Assembly (NCBI GenBank): GCA_018820665.1
Contig: JAHJNW010000084.1
Coordinates: forward strand, 1 to 64,000
Direction of reading: 5' to 3'
Length of the DNA: 64,000 bases
DNA from: Alphaproteobacteria bacterium
GTDB taxonomy: Bacteria > Pseudomonadota > Alphaproteobacteria > Caulobacterales > Caulobacteraceae
The position numbers and the translations under genes are program-made. The notes under the pieces are model-generated. The model made no database searches. It was not told where the DNA came from and saw nothing but the letters and a program-made list of their open reading frames with translations. Below, piece by piece: positions 30,118-43,655 of the stretch (within the stretch, counting starts at the first letter, position 1; each line of letters begins with the position of its first letter).

Positions 30118-30368
30118 GGCGGGTGTTTGCCGAGAGGACCTGCGAACCGCAAGCCGCGATAGAGCGTCTCAGGACCGTTGAATGGTGAGTCGCAGCGGAC
30201 AATCCATGCCCTCAGCGGCCCATTTCGCCCCTTCAGCGCAAATTTGTTGCCGAGCCGGCTTGTGCGACGCAGCAAGGCATGGTTACCTCGTTGCTGAACT
30301 GGAGTGTCCACGTGGCCCACCGCGCCCGCATCGCTGACCGCACCATCGCCGTTTCGGCGATCGCGGCC

Positions 30369-30464
30369 ATGCGCGCGCCGCACGCCCTGAACGCCCTCAA
30401 CATCCTTATTCTCGCTGTATCGCTGCTCCTCCTTCCCGGAGCGGTGTGGATGCACGCAACCTGA
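30369..30464 (+). CDS. ilv-leu operon leader peptide (IlvL-like); start could be further upstream (30279)
   Basis: MRAPHALNALNILILAVSLLLLPGAVWMHAT: dense Leu/Ile/Val run, stop about 30 nt before a terminator hairpin, 100 nt upstream of ilvD. Confidence 0.75.
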   Translation: MRAPHALNALNILILAVSLLLLPGAVWMHAT

Positions 30465-30494
30465 ACCCAAGCCCCTTCAGGATCGCCCGCAGCC

Positions 30495-30523
30495 ACCCGC
30501 TCCCGAAAGGAAGCGGGTTTTTT
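30495..30523 (+). terminator. Rho-independent terminator/attenuator before ilvD
   Basis: acccgctcc-cgaaa-ggaagcgggttttttg: GC-rich stem (one bulge) plus T-tract between leader ORF and ilvD. Confidence 0.85.
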
Positions 30524-30564
30524 GTTGCGCGCGGTCCGGACCTTACCCGGAACCCACGCCCGCC

Positions 30565-32307
30565 ATGATGCAAGATTTCACCCCGAACGACCGGCCGCCG
30601 AACGCGCGCAGCCGCGCCGTCACGGCCGGCCCCAGCCGGGCCGCCGCGCGCAGCTATCTGCGCGCCGCGGGCATGCAGGACGCCGACTTCGAAAAGCCGA
30701 TGATCGCCGTGGTCAACACCTGGTCGTCGGTCACCCCGTGCAACATGCACCTGGACCGGCTGGCCAGGGACGTCCGCGCCGGCATCATCGCGGCCGGCGG
30801 CTATCCAGTCGATTTCAACACCATCGTCGTCACCGACGGCATCTCCATGGGCACGGCCGGCATGAAGGCCTCGCTGATCAGCCGCGAGGTCGTCGCCGAC
30901 TCGATCGAACTGGCCGTCGAGGGCCACCAGCTGGACGGCGTGATCTGCATCGTCGGCTGCGACAAGACCATCCCGGCGGCAGCCATGGCCCTGGCGCGGA
31001 TGGATATCCCGGGTCTGGTCTATTACGGCGGCACCATCCTGCCCGGCCGCATCGGCGCGCGCGAGGTTTCGGTCCAGGACATCTTCGAGGCCATCGGCGC
31101 CCACGCCGCCGGGGCGCTGGACGACGCCGGCCTGCAGGCGGTCGAGAGCGCGGTCTGCCCGGGGGCCGGCGCCTGCGGCGGCCAGTTCACCGCCAACACC
31201 ATGGCCATGGCCCTGACGGTCATGGGCCTGTCGCCGATGGGGGCCAATGACGTGCCCGCCGTCGATCCGGCCAAGGGCGCCGAGGGCGAACGCTGCGGCC
31301 GGCTGATCGTCGAGCGCGTCTTCGCCGGCGACACGGCGCGTAAATACATCACCCGGGCCAGCCTGAAAAACGCCGCCGCCGCCGTCTCGGCCTCGGGCGG
31401 ATCGACCAACGCCGTGATGCACCTGACCGCCATCGCGGCCGAGGCCGGCGTCGAGTTCGGCATCGAGGACTGCCATCAGGCCTGCGTCGACGCCCCGGTG
31501 ATCTGCGACCTGAAGCCGGGCGGCCGCTTCCTGGCCTCGCACCTGTTCGCCGCCGGCGGCACGCGGCTGGTGACCCAGCGGATGGCGGCGGCGGGCAAGA
31601 TCGTCAACGCCCCTACCGTCAGCGGCCGCAGCCTGTTCGCCGAGGCCGCCGAGGCCGAGGAGACCCCGGGCCAGCAGGTCGTCGCCGACTTCGCCACCCC
31701 GGTCATGGCGCGCGGCAGCTACGCCGTCATCTATGGCGACATCGCGCCGGACGGGGCGGTGATCAAGCTGACCGGCCACAAGGTCGACCGGTTCGAGGGC
31801 CCCGCCTGCGTCTTCGACTGCGAGGAAGACGCCTTCCACGCGGTCCAGGACGGCTCGGTCGGCGAGGGCGACGTCATCGTCATCCGCTACGAGGGGCCGA
31901 AAGGCGGGCCCGGCATGCGCGAGATGCTGCAGGTCACCGCCGCCCTGAAAGGTCGCGGCGTCGACAATGTCGCCCTGATCACCGACGGCCGCTTCTCGGG
32001 CGCCAGCTACGGCTTCGTCGCCGGCCATGTGTCGCCCGAGGCGGCGGCGGGCGGCCCCATTGCTCTCATTCGCGACGGCGACCGGATCGCCATCGACGTC
32101 GCCAACCGCCGGATCGACGTCGACGCCGATCTGGCGAAGCGCCGGGCGGAGTTCGCGCCCCAATGCCTCCGCCCGGCGCACGGAGTCTTCGCCAAATACC
32201 GCGCCTCGGTGGCCTCCGCCGCCCAGGGAGCCGTCACCATTCCCGATCCGCCGCCGGTTCAGCGACCCGCCGAAACCGCAGCCCATTCCGCCCGAGAGGA
32301 CGCCTGA
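30565..32307 (+). CDS. ilvD: Dihydroxy-acid dehydratase
   Basis: Cys motifs VGCDKTIPAAAMALARMDIPG and GAGACGGQFTANTMAMA; GRFSGASYGFVAGHVSPEAA. Confidence 0.96.
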   Translation: MMQDFTPNDRPPNARSRAVTAGPSRAAARSYLRAAGMQDADFEKPMIAVVNTWSSVTPCNMHLDRLARDVRAGIIAAGGYPVDFNTIVVTDGISMGTAGMKASLISREVVADSIELAVEGHQLDGVICIVGCDKTIPAAAMALARMDIPGLVYYGGTILPGRIGAREVSVQDIFEAIGAHAAGALDDAGLQAVESAVCPGAGACGGQFTANTMAMALTVMGLSPMGANDVPAVDPAKGAEGERCGRLIVERVFAGDTARKYITRASLKNAAAAVSASGGSTNAVMHLTAIAAEAGVEFGIEDCHQACVDAPVICDLKPGGRFLASHLFAAGGTRLVTQRMAAAGKIVNAPTVSGRSLFAEAAEAEETPGQQVVADFATPVMARGSYAVIYGDIAPDGAVIKLTGHKVDRFEGPACVFDCEEDAFHAVQDGSVGEGDVIVIRYEGPKGGPGMREMLQVTAALKGRGVDNVALITDGRFSGASYGFVAGHVSPEAAAGGPIALIRDGDRIAIDVANRRIDVDADLAKRRAEFAPQCLRPAHGVFAKYRASVASAAQGAVTIPDPPPVQRPAETAAHSAREDA

Positions 32308-40562: not shown

Positions 40563-40802
40563 CGTGAGAGGTGAAACCGTGTCGTGTGGAGCGCACATCC
40601 GGCGGATCGGGCGTGTGGCCGTGCAAAATCGCCCCCGTCAGGGAATAAAATTGCAGCGTGACTTGACGCGCGCCGTTTCAGTCCGCAGCCTGTCGTCCGA
40701 CTTCAATGTGAGCCCGGTCCCTTGAACCGTTCCGCCGCCTTCTTCCCCGTCCGTCCGACCGCCTCGCGCGGCGGTGCGGGCGTGCGCGCCAGCGGCCTCG
40801 GT

Positions 40803-40853
40803 ATGACCACCTCGATCACCACCATCACCACGCTCATGGCGGGGACAGGTTAG
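40803..40853 (+). CDS. thr operon leader peptide (ThrL-like); in-frame upstream TTG 40723 is an alternative start
   Basis: MTTSITTITTLMAGTG stop: 7 Thr and 2 Ile in 16 residues, upstream of thrA, followed by terminator hairpin. Closely resembles E. coli ThrL in composition. Confidence 0.82.
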   Translation: MTTSITTITTLMAGTG

Positions 40854-40883
40854 CGCGCACCACACTCAGGATCGCTCCAACCC

Positions 40884-40914
40884 AACCCCGCCCGGACCCC
40901 CGGGCGGGGTTTTT
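40884..40914 (+). terminator. Rho-independent terminator/attenuator before thrA
   Basis: Perfect 12-bp stem aaccccgcccgg / ccgggcggggtt with 4-nt loop, followed by T-run. Confidence 0.92.
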
Positions 40915-40957
40915 CATTTCCGCCTTCCCCCAATCAGCCTCATTCGAAAGTCCTGCC

Positions 40958-42706
40958 ATGCCCAGCCTCGCCCTCCTTCGACAGAAACCGGCGCCCGCCG
41001 CCGCCCTCCCCCTGCCCGGCGCACCCGTGGTGGTGATGAAGTTCGGCAGTTCGGTGCTGGCCAGTCCGGCCGACGCGCCCGCCGTCGCCTCCGACATCTA
41101 TGCCGAGGTCCGGCGCGGCCGCCGCGTCGTCGCCGTGGTCTCGGCCTTCGCCGGCGAGACCGACCGGCTGCTGGCCGAGGCGCGGCTGCTCGGTCTTGCG
41201 CACGACAACCCCCTGCTGCCGGCCTATGTCGTGCAGGGCGAGGAGCGGTCGGCGGCCCTGACGGCCCTGGCCTGCGACCGGATCGGGCTGGACGCTGCGA
41301 CCCTGACGGTGCGCGAGCTCGGCATCCTCGCCGAGGGGCCGTGCGAGCACGCCCGCCCCGTCGCCCTCGATCGCGCCGCGCTGGAGCGGGCGCTGGAGCG
41401 GCATGAGGTCGTGGTGGTGCCCGGCTTCGGCGCTCTCGGGCCCGACGGCCGGGCGGTGCTGCTGGGCCGGGGCGGGTCGGACCTGACCGCCCTGTTCCTC
41501 GCCGCCGAGCTGGGCCTCGACCACGTCCAGCTGGTGAAGGACGTCGACGGCCTCTACGACCGCGACCCCAACGCCGATCCCGACGCCCGCCGCTACGATC
41601 AGGCCAGCTGGGCCGAGGCCAAGGGCTTGGGCGGCGGGCTGGTGCAGCCGGACGCCCTCGACCTGGCCGAGGCGCGGCGGCTGTGCGTCGAGGTTCGCAA
41701 CCACGCCGACGGCCACCGCACCGCGATCGGGGCCGAGGGCGCGCCGCCGCGCCGCGTGCCGCCGCGTCGCCGGCTGAAGGTCGCGGTGGCCGGTTGCGGC
41801 GTCGTCGGCGGCGGGGCCCTGTCGCGGCTGCTGGGCGACGCCCGCGTCGAGGTCGTCGGCGTGCTGGTGCGCGATCCGGCCAAGGCCCGTGACATCCCCG
41901 GCTTCCCGGCGGCCGCCTTGGCGCCGCTGTTGGTGGACAATGCCGCCGCCCTGCTGGACCGCGACCCGGACATCCTGCTGGAGGCCTTGTCGGAGGCGGA
42001 GGCCGGTCACGCCGTGATCCGCGCCGCGCTGGAGCGCGGCGTCGATGTGGCCAGCGCCAACAAACAGGCGGTCAGCCGCGACCCCGCCGGCCTGCTGGCC
42101 CTCGCCGAGGTTCATGAGGCGAAACTGCTGTGGTCGGCGTCGATCGGCGGCGGCGCGCCCATGGTCGAGACCCTGCGCGCGGCCCGCGCCGACGGCCCGG
42201 TCGCGGGCTTCGAGGCGGTGCTGAACGGCACGGTCAACTTCATGCTCGAACGGCTCGGCGACGGCGCCTCGTTCGACCAGGCCCTGGCCGAGGCCCGCGC
42301 TGCCGGTTTCGCCGAGGAGGATCCCTCCTCCGACCTCGAAGGCCTCGACGCCGCCGCCAAGGTGCGCTTGCTGGCGTTCGAAGCCTTCGGCCTGATGCCG
42401 GACGAGGGGGACATCCCGCGCGACGTGCTGTCGCCGGACGCCCTCCCGCCGGCCGGCGCGCGCCAGCTGTGTCGATGCCGGCTGGACAACGGCCGGGTCG
42501 TCGCCGAGGTTCGTCTGGTCGCCGGCGCGCTCGATCCGCTGTTCGCCGCGCTGAACGGGGAGCGCAACGCCTTGAAGGTCATAGGCCCGGATGGATCGGC
42601 GGTGCGGTGCCGGGGTCGCGGCGCCGGCCGCTGGGCCACGGCCGAGAGCCTGCTGGCCGACCTCGGCGAGCTCGCCGCCCGCCGCTTCGCGCTTCAGGAC
42701 GCCTGA
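40958..42706 (+). CDS. thrA: Bifunctional aspartokinase/homoserine dehydrogenase, short form (582 aa)
   Basis: AK motif VVMKFGSSVLAS, LLGRGGSDLTALFLAAELG; HSD Rossmann motif VAVAGCGVVGGGALSRLL, SANKQAVSRD, GGGAPMVETLRAA, NGTVNFML. The two domains are nearly contiguous. Confidence 0.93.
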   Translation: MPSLALLRQKPAPAAALPLPGAPVVVMKFGSSVLASPADAPAVASDIYAEVRRGRRVVAVVSAFAGETDRLLAEARLLGLAHDNPLLPAYVVQGEERSAALTALACDRIGLDAATLTVRELGILAEGPCEHARPVALDRAALERALERHEVVVVPGFGALGPDGRAVLLGRGGSDLTALFLAAELGLDHVQLVKDVDGLYDRDPNADPDARRYDQASWAEAKGLGGGLVQPDALDLAEARRLCVEVRNHADGHRTAIGAEGAPPRRVPPRRRLKVAVAGCGVVGGGALSRLLGDARVEVVGVLVRDPAKARDIPGFPAAALAPLLVDNAAALLDRDPDILLEALSEAEAGHAVIRAALERGVDVASANKQAVSRDPAGLLALAEVHEAKLLWSASIGGGAPMVETLRAARADGPVAGFEAVLNGTVNFMLERLGDGASFDQALAEARAAGFAEEDPSSDLEGLDAAAKVRLLAFEAFGLMPDEGDIPRDVLSPDALPPAGARQLCRCRLDNGRVVAEVRLVAGALDPLFAALNGERNALKVIGPDGSAVRCRGRGAGRWATAESLLADLGELAARRFALQDA

Positions 42707-42707
42707 G

Positions 42708-43655
42708 ATGGCGGTGTTCACCCCCGTGGAGGAGGCCGAGGCCGAACCCTTCATTAGTCGCTTCGGCCTCGGGTCGTTGCGCGCCCTGACGCCGATCGCC
42801 GAGGGTGTGGAGAACACCAACTACCGCCTCGATACGGATCAGGGACGGTTCGTCCTGACCCTGTTCGAGGGCCGGACCGACGAGGCCGCCCTGCCCTTCT
42901 GCCTCGGGCTGACGCGCCACGCGGCGGAACGCGGCCTGCCCTGCGCCAGCGCGCTGGTCGACGCCGGCGGCGAGGCGATCGGACGGCTGAACGGCCGGCC
43001 CGCCGCCATCCTCGACTGGCTGCCGGGCGTGGCGAAGACCGAGCCGTCGCTCGACGATCAGGCGGCCGCCGGCGCCCTGCTGGCCCGCCTGCATCTGGCG
43101 GCGGCCGACTATCCGGCGGAACGGGCCAATCCCGTGGGCGCCGCCGCCCGCCGGGCGCTGTTCGAGCGGTGCGACACGCGGGCCGCGGGCGCCGACCGAC
43201 GGATCCTCGAGCGGCTGGCGCCGTGGGTGGCGGCCCACGCGCCTGACCCCGCCGCCGGCCTGCCGCGCGGCCCCATCCACGCTGACTATTTTCCGGACAA
43301 CCTGCTGTTCGAGGGTGGCGCGCCCAGCGGCCTGATCGACTTCTATTTCGCCTGCGTCGACGCCCTCGCCTACGACCTCGCCATCGCCCTGTCGGCCTGG
43401 GGGTTCGACGCCACGGGAGCCCCGCTTCCCGCCGCGCTGCACGCCTTCCAGTCGGGCTATGAAGCGGTCCGGCCGCTCAGCGCGGCCGAGCGCGCCGCCC
43501 TGCCCGAACTGGGCGCGGTCGCCGCCGTGCGCTTCACCCTGACGCGTCTGCACGACCGGCTGTTCCACGACCCGGCAGCCCTGGTCACGCCCAAGGATCC
43601 CGCGCCGTTCCTGCGTCGGCTCGACTGGTGGACCGGGGCGCCGCTGGCCGCCTGA
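42708..43655 (+). CDS. thrB: Homoserine kinase (APH-fold ThrB type)
   Basis: MAVFTPVEEAEAEPFISRFGLGSLRALTPIAEGVENTNYRLDTDQGRFVLTLFE; GPIHADYFPDNLLFEGGAPSGLIDFYFACVD. Confidence 0.95.
   Translation: MAVFTPVEEAEAEPFISRFGLGSLRALTPIAEGVENTNYRLDTDQGRFVLTLFEGRTDEAALPFCLGLTRHAAERGLPCASALVDAGGEAIGRLNGRPAAILDWLPGVAKTEPSLDDQAAAGALLARLHLAAADYPAERANPVGAAARRALFERCDTRAAGADRRILERLAPWVAAHAPDPAAGLPRGPIHADYFPDNLLFEGGAPSGLIDFYFACVDALAYDLAIALSAWGFDATGAPLPAALHAFQSGYEAVRPLSAAERAALPELGAVAAVRFTLTRLHDRLFHDPAALVTPKDPAPFLRRLDWWTGAPLAA

Follow-up and report, generated by a model that had tools for sequence, protein, structure and literature searches.

A putative threonine attenuator upstream of a compact thrA gene in Brevundimonas

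The thrL leader of E. coli is the textbook threonine attenuator. In enterobacteria, thrL (Rfam RF00506, Thr_leader) has a Thr/Ile-rich leader peptide, a terminator and an exclusive antiterminator, and it lies directly before the gene of a fused aspartate kinase-homoserine dehydrogenase and thrB. The locus described here resembles it in all of these points. Ribosome-mediated attenuation is known in Alphaproteobacteria from the ilvB leader (PMC1273637) and trpL (PMC10117765). These ilv and trp attenuators share class and mechanism with the present locus but carry branched-chain or Trp codons and precede other operons. In Sinorhizobium, the small ORF SEP5 has six Thr and three Lys codons and is part of the 5'-UTR of a gene designated aspartate dehydrogenase; it is translated, has been proposed to encode a leader peptide and was reported to be conserved only in Sinorhizobium (PMC10117765). 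SEP5 is likewise a Thr-rich alphaproteobacterial leader before an aspartate-pathway gene, but it has Lys codons in addition to Thr codons and precedes another gene. A survey of 255 genomes, including Caulobacterales, counted 45 Thr leaders and suggested that Thr attenuators may stem from gammaproteobacteria, with very few transfers (PMC3766115). None of the papers found in our literature search describes a thr attenuator from Alphaproteobacteria, and a survey of 2004 (FEMS Microbiol Lett 234:357) may mention one. The mechanism is known; the lineage, the RNA sequence and the target, a ThrA without ACT domains, appear to be new.

We analyzed a stretch of 64,000 nucleotides, called here the window, from contig JAHJNW010000084.1 of an alphaproteobacterium of the family Caulobacteraceae. 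Among named genomes, those of Brevundimonas match it best. In the window, ilvD, ilvC, ilvB, leuA, ilvE, leuC, leuD, leuB, thrA and thrB follow each other on one strand, and thrC is convergent. The genes were named from their translations, and leuB and thrB were confirmed by NCBIfam. Judging from sequence comparison and from predicted folds, the region upstream of thrA is very probably a ribosome-mediated transcription attenuator that controls thrA-thrB and senses charged threonyl-tRNA. Isoleucine possibly adds to the threonine signal. For comparison we used 53 thr-type Brevundimonas loci, that is, the window and 52 others, all with upstream sequence; L078 and L088 are fragments without usable upstream sequence and were not counted. 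The Thr/Ile-rich leader, the terminator and a common promoter were found in all 53 loci. All features described below are on the forward strand.

The core leader ORF, MTTSITTITTLMAGTG, occupies positions 40803..40853, with the ATG at 40803 and the stop codon TAG at 40851-40853. Seven of its 16 residues are Thr and two are Ile. The putative control codons ACC ACC TCG ATC ACC ACC ATC ACC ACG are located at 40806..40832. A Thr/Ile-rich core was found in 53/53 loci, which bears out the strongly Thr-biased leader before thrA described in an earlier note on this DNA. Typical leader peptides of the relatives are MTTTTTTTTLMAGTG, MITTTGTTTMPLRAGTG, MIIGTTGTTTITMPSRAGRV and MTLATLISTTTGMTITGPSRAGTG. 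Codon counts over the 53 loci gave 31% Thr and 6.9% Ile in the last 24 leader codons, compared to 1.5% and 1.7% in ThrA. Small ORFs with at least six Thr and Ile per 10 residues occur in 0.7% of random 340-nt stretches of the window, and those with at least seven in 0.2%.

The translated unit is probably longer than this core. In 52 of the 53 loci, an in-frame ATG, GTG or TTG is located 25-38 nt downstream of the -10 element of the promoter; GTG is the most frequent of these codons, and the window has TTG 40722. The probable full leader ORF of the window, MNRSAAFFPVRPTASRGGAGVRASGLGMTTSITTITTLMAGTG (40722..40853), begins with this TTG and encodes 43 aa, and the long ORF encodes 37-48 aa across the loci. 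Because the start codon and the open frame are preserved, translation probably begins at TTG 40722 rather than at ATG 40803. They are preserved although the peptide is not visibly selected: in the extension, no bias at the third codon position was found and purifying selection was not detected. A clear Shine-Dalgarno sequence was not seen upstream of either TTG 40722 or ATG 40803. An extension to about 43 aa had been proposed before; its length holds and the position of the start is conserved, but the TTG begins at 40722 and not at 40723.

A dedicated promoter lies upstream of the leader at 40663..40691, recognized by its conserved elements: the -35 element TTGACG (40663-40668), a 17-nt spacer and the -10 element CAGCCT (40686-40691). 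TTGAC and CANNNT at a spacing of 17-18 nt are present 5' of the leader in 53/53 Brevundimonas thrA loci. A strict sigma-70 consensus scan missed this promoter.

The intrinsic terminator (40884..40914), found by a terminator scan and by covariation, has the form AACCCCGCCCGG-ACCC-CCGGGCGGGGTT. Its stem of 12 pairs, ten of them G-C, spans 40884-40911 around a 4-nt loop, and the U-run TTTTT (40910-40914) follows; the perfect 12-bp terminator stem noted earlier before thrA is thereby confirmed. Its 3' end is about 45 nt upstream of the thrA ATG at 40958. A scan of 16 kb returned five terminator-like sites, of which 40884-40911 is by far the strongest; shuffled sequences gave 4.4 sites on average. 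The RNA of the leader region folds better than 200 of 200 shuffles. In 53/53 loci the U-run ends 60-68 nt after the leader stop, and the covariation of the terminator in 37 aligned loci was above that of 500/500 shuffles.

Since leuB ends on the same strand 160 nt upstream of the long leader ORF, and the 16-kb scan revealed no other terminator between leuB and 40884, this hairpin could merely end the ilv-leu transcript, with the Thr-rich ORF arising by chance. The earlier note had named this, together with a leader not conserved in relatives, as what would speak against an attenuator. It turned out that no more than 8 loci of the 53, the window and seven others, carry leuB upstream, and the leader, promoter and terminator are present in all 53. 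In the closest relative, L037, whose ThrA is 90% identical, leuB is absent within 2.5 kb and the leader MTTTTTTTTLMAGTG is still there. A Thr/Ile-rich ORF of this kind is expected at a rate of only about 0.2-0.7% per stretch, as given above. We therefore consider this explanation highly improbable. As the sole explanation, a leuB terminator is refuted, since the leader tracks thrA and not leuB. In the window's clade the hairpin may additionally close the ilv-leu transcript, given that the scan showed no second terminator after leuB and before 40884.

Attenuation also requires a structure that competes with the terminator. The predicted 5' strand of the antiterminator (region 2, 40838..40851) consists of GGCGGGG (40838-40844) and GGTT (40848-40851). 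It is located inside the last leader codons and the stop codon, just 3' of the Thr run, and GGCGGGG duplicates the sequence of the terminator 3' arm. The shared strand (region 3, 40879..40895), which was derived from pairing prediction and folding, includes AACC (40879-40882) and the terminator 5' arm AACCCCGCCCGG (40884-40895). GGTT is predicted to pair with AACC, and GGCGGGG with CCCCGCC (40886-40892). A perfect antiterminator helix of 7-11 bp at the same codon position was found in 52/53 Brevundimonas loci. When the terminator 3' arm was omitted from the folds, which represents the state before its transcription, the antiterminator was the minimum-energy fold in 58/60 loci. These 60 loci include several from the Sphingomonas group and from Robiginitomaculum, where the arms have a different sequence but can pair all the same, as GAGCGGG does with CCCGCTC in L099. 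In the window, the fold with the ribosome stalled upstream is the antiterminator, at -28.2 kcal/mol. With the ribosome at the stop codon, the competing structure is absent (-3.8) and the full terminator folds at -29.0 kcal/mol. The parts of the putative attenuator and their conservation are observed, and the two exclusive pairings are predicted ones.

The covariation of the antiterminator, scored on a fixed structure in the Brevundimonas alignment, was slightly above that of shuffles, 43/500 of which reached it. This low value can be explained by the shared strand and by arms that are nearly invariant. When codon order was randomized, 36/53 loci fell below 0.05; when synonymous codons were exchanged, only 7/53 did, as recoding often retains the pairing. 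This indicates that GC-rich codons alone account for part of the antiterminator pairing. The RNAalifold consensus of 36 loci recovered the terminator and not the antiterminator, because the two compete.

Alternative structures would be present whatever the trigger is, so a threonine-sensing riboswitch or a protein bound to the leader could in principle choose between them instead of a stalled ribosome. We regard this as extremely improbable. The Thr codons form a run in one frame that stops shortly before region 2, and this run persists although the surrounding RNA varies. A ligand pocket would be expected to be conserved, but the sequence inside the antiterminator loop is not, and all Rfam families scored below their cutoffs. 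Three features of the ribosome-mediated attenuator class are found together here: codons for the pathway product in the leader, an intrinsic terminator and, in the predicted folds, an exclusive antiterminator that a ribosome can mask.

The proposed mechanism is as follows. Transcription would initiate at the promoter 40663-40691, and a ribosome would translate the leader. When threonine is sufficient, the ribosome would reach the stop codon at 40851-40853 and mask GGCGGGG (40838-40844). The segment 40884-40895 could then pair with 40900-40911, and RNA polymerase would halt before thrA. Under a shortage of threonyl-tRNA, it would instead stall at the Thr codons, leaving GGCGGGG and GGTT free to pair with CCCCGCC and AACC. 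Formation of this antiterminator would block the terminator, and thrA-thrB would be transcribed. In the window's clade, the terminator would also act on ilv-leu read-through. We infer ribosome stalling, threonine as the signal and regulated termination in vivo from comparison and folding.

Since leaders can in general be controlled through Rho, it is conceivable that this leader acts mainly via translation or via Rho-dependent termination and that the hairpin is secondary. A strong intrinsic terminator with a U-run at a fixed spacing in all loci does not fit this idea, and neither does the thrA start, which lies about 45 nt beyond the hairpin at a distance that varies among relatives. Such a mode of action is in our opinion highly unlikely, and attenuation by the leader ribosome is the preferred reading.

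The presumed target, thrA (40958..42706), encodes a compact aspartate kinase-homoserine dehydrogenase fusion of 582 aa. Using Pfam, we found only the AA_kinase, NAD_binding_3 and Homoserine_dh domains in it. Pfam detected no ACT domain in ThrA, whereas it did detect such domains in the LysC encoded by this genome. Compared to NCBIfam PRK09436 (bifunctional AK-HSD I, the E. coli-type ThrA), the protein scored 152 bits at a cutoff of 726 and so does not belong to this equivalog. A ThrA without ACT domains may be insensitive to feedback by threonine. The next gene, thrB (42708..43655), encodes a homoserine kinase (NCBIfam PRK05231, 305.6 bits, cutoff 271). It directly follows thrA, and the two genes are presumably co-transcribed; in nearly all Brevundimonas loci, too, thrB comes after thrA. 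As a further control, the same genome has a second homoserine dehydrogenase gene directly 3' of a metB/metZ-type gene, without a leader. We also observed that a second homoserine dehydrogenase beside a metB/metZ-type gene (L111, G000:C53:10800-13400) begins with what is left of a decayed aspartate kinase.

The earlier note had seen a close parallel to enterobacterial thrL. This is true of the mechanism but not of the RNA or of the domain make-up of ThrA. The RNA matched RF00506 over the full model (1-118) with 15.3 bits (cutoff 55, E 2.5), and so falls outside this family, whose position before thrA it shares. At the gathering threshold, no Rfam family matched in the window. A weak full-length match to the Rfam Rhizobiales-2 RNA was seen at 40821-40910 (+), with 23.8 bits and below the cutoff of 40. 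In contrast to enterobacterial thrL, the Brevundimonas leader probably has 37-48 aa and a GTG or TTG start, and its antiterminator strand is within the last leader codons. The Brevundimonas system also differs in that ThrA has no ACT domain and thrC is convergent and outside the operon. We suggest only tentatively, and hold it somewhat doubtful, that in these alphaproteobacteria the attenuator replaces enzyme feedback inhibition in a fusion that had lost its ACT domains, with threonine acting on transcription instead, and that it originated independently of the enterobacterial one. With an attenuator before an ACT-less ThrA, a possible trade between feedback on the enzyme and control of transcription becomes testable.

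We also assessed the distribution of the leader. Among 61 relatives, a covariance model gave matches of at least 71 bits in 23 genomes, exactly those that carry the Brevundimonas-type fused thrA in full length. These matches adjoin the fused thrA on its 5' side, and the remaining genomes scored at most 41 bits. Some of these sequences had served to train the model, and the agreement therefore shows consistency but is not an independent test. At E 1e-60, only one of 289 sampled alphaproteobacterial genomes, the window's own, had the fused ThrA, and a covariance-model search of the 289 genomes found no further thr leader. A Thr-rich leader of its own precedes the fused gene in Sphingomonas, in Robiginitomaculum and in G047, a genome from the same order; most of these leaders have arms that are altered yet still complementary. 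Leaders are present in Brevundimonas, the Sphingomonas group, Robiginitomaculum and L079; no leader was found before the fused gene in the Hellea, Algimonas and Parvularcula relatives. In one further Brevundimonas locus, L076, which branches first within the clade of this genus, the fused gene is located after the end of a metB-type gene and lacks the leader. A tree of 57 ThrA proteins requires four changes of leader presence, and the mean for shuffled presence is 16.2. A thr attenuator unrelated in sequence to the enterobacterial one throughout Brevundimonas, with counterparts in Sphingomonas and Robiginitomaculum, would mean that such attenuators have several origins or are much older and unmodelled.

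A second leader of the window precedes ilvD (30280-30570). Its core MRAPHALNALNILILAVSLLLLPGAVWMHAT ends near 30464, is rich in Leu, Ile and Val and is accompanied by a terminator. Similar Leu/Ile/Val-rich leaders with AWMHAT-like ends, mostly with a terminator, are found before ilvD in most relatives, and the ilv leader is kept in most Brevundimonas genomes that possess ilvD. The earlier note had taken the ilv and thr attenuators for a locally clustered regulon. The ilv leader is genuine, but among 21 compared genomes a distance of about 10 kb from ilvD to thrA was seen in only two, that of the window and its close relative G030. The closeness of ilv and thr is the arrangement of one clade and not a conserved attenuation cluster, so that the idea of a clustered regulon is not supported.

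The other covariance-model matches in the 289 genomes resemble ordinary terminators, except one before asd. In another alphaproteobacterial family, asd, the gene of aspartate-semialdehyde dehydrogenase, is preceded by short Lys/Thr-rich ORFs, for example MTIKRKTTTTKPTGAGIVRA and MKTLKRTTTKTKPCGAGNARA (L165-L193). This leader was first seen as L151 (G199:C9:933021-933127), and a terminator follows it in most of the loci closest to G199. It is likely a dual Lys/Thr attenuator and recalls SEP5 of Sinorhizobium (PMC10117765).
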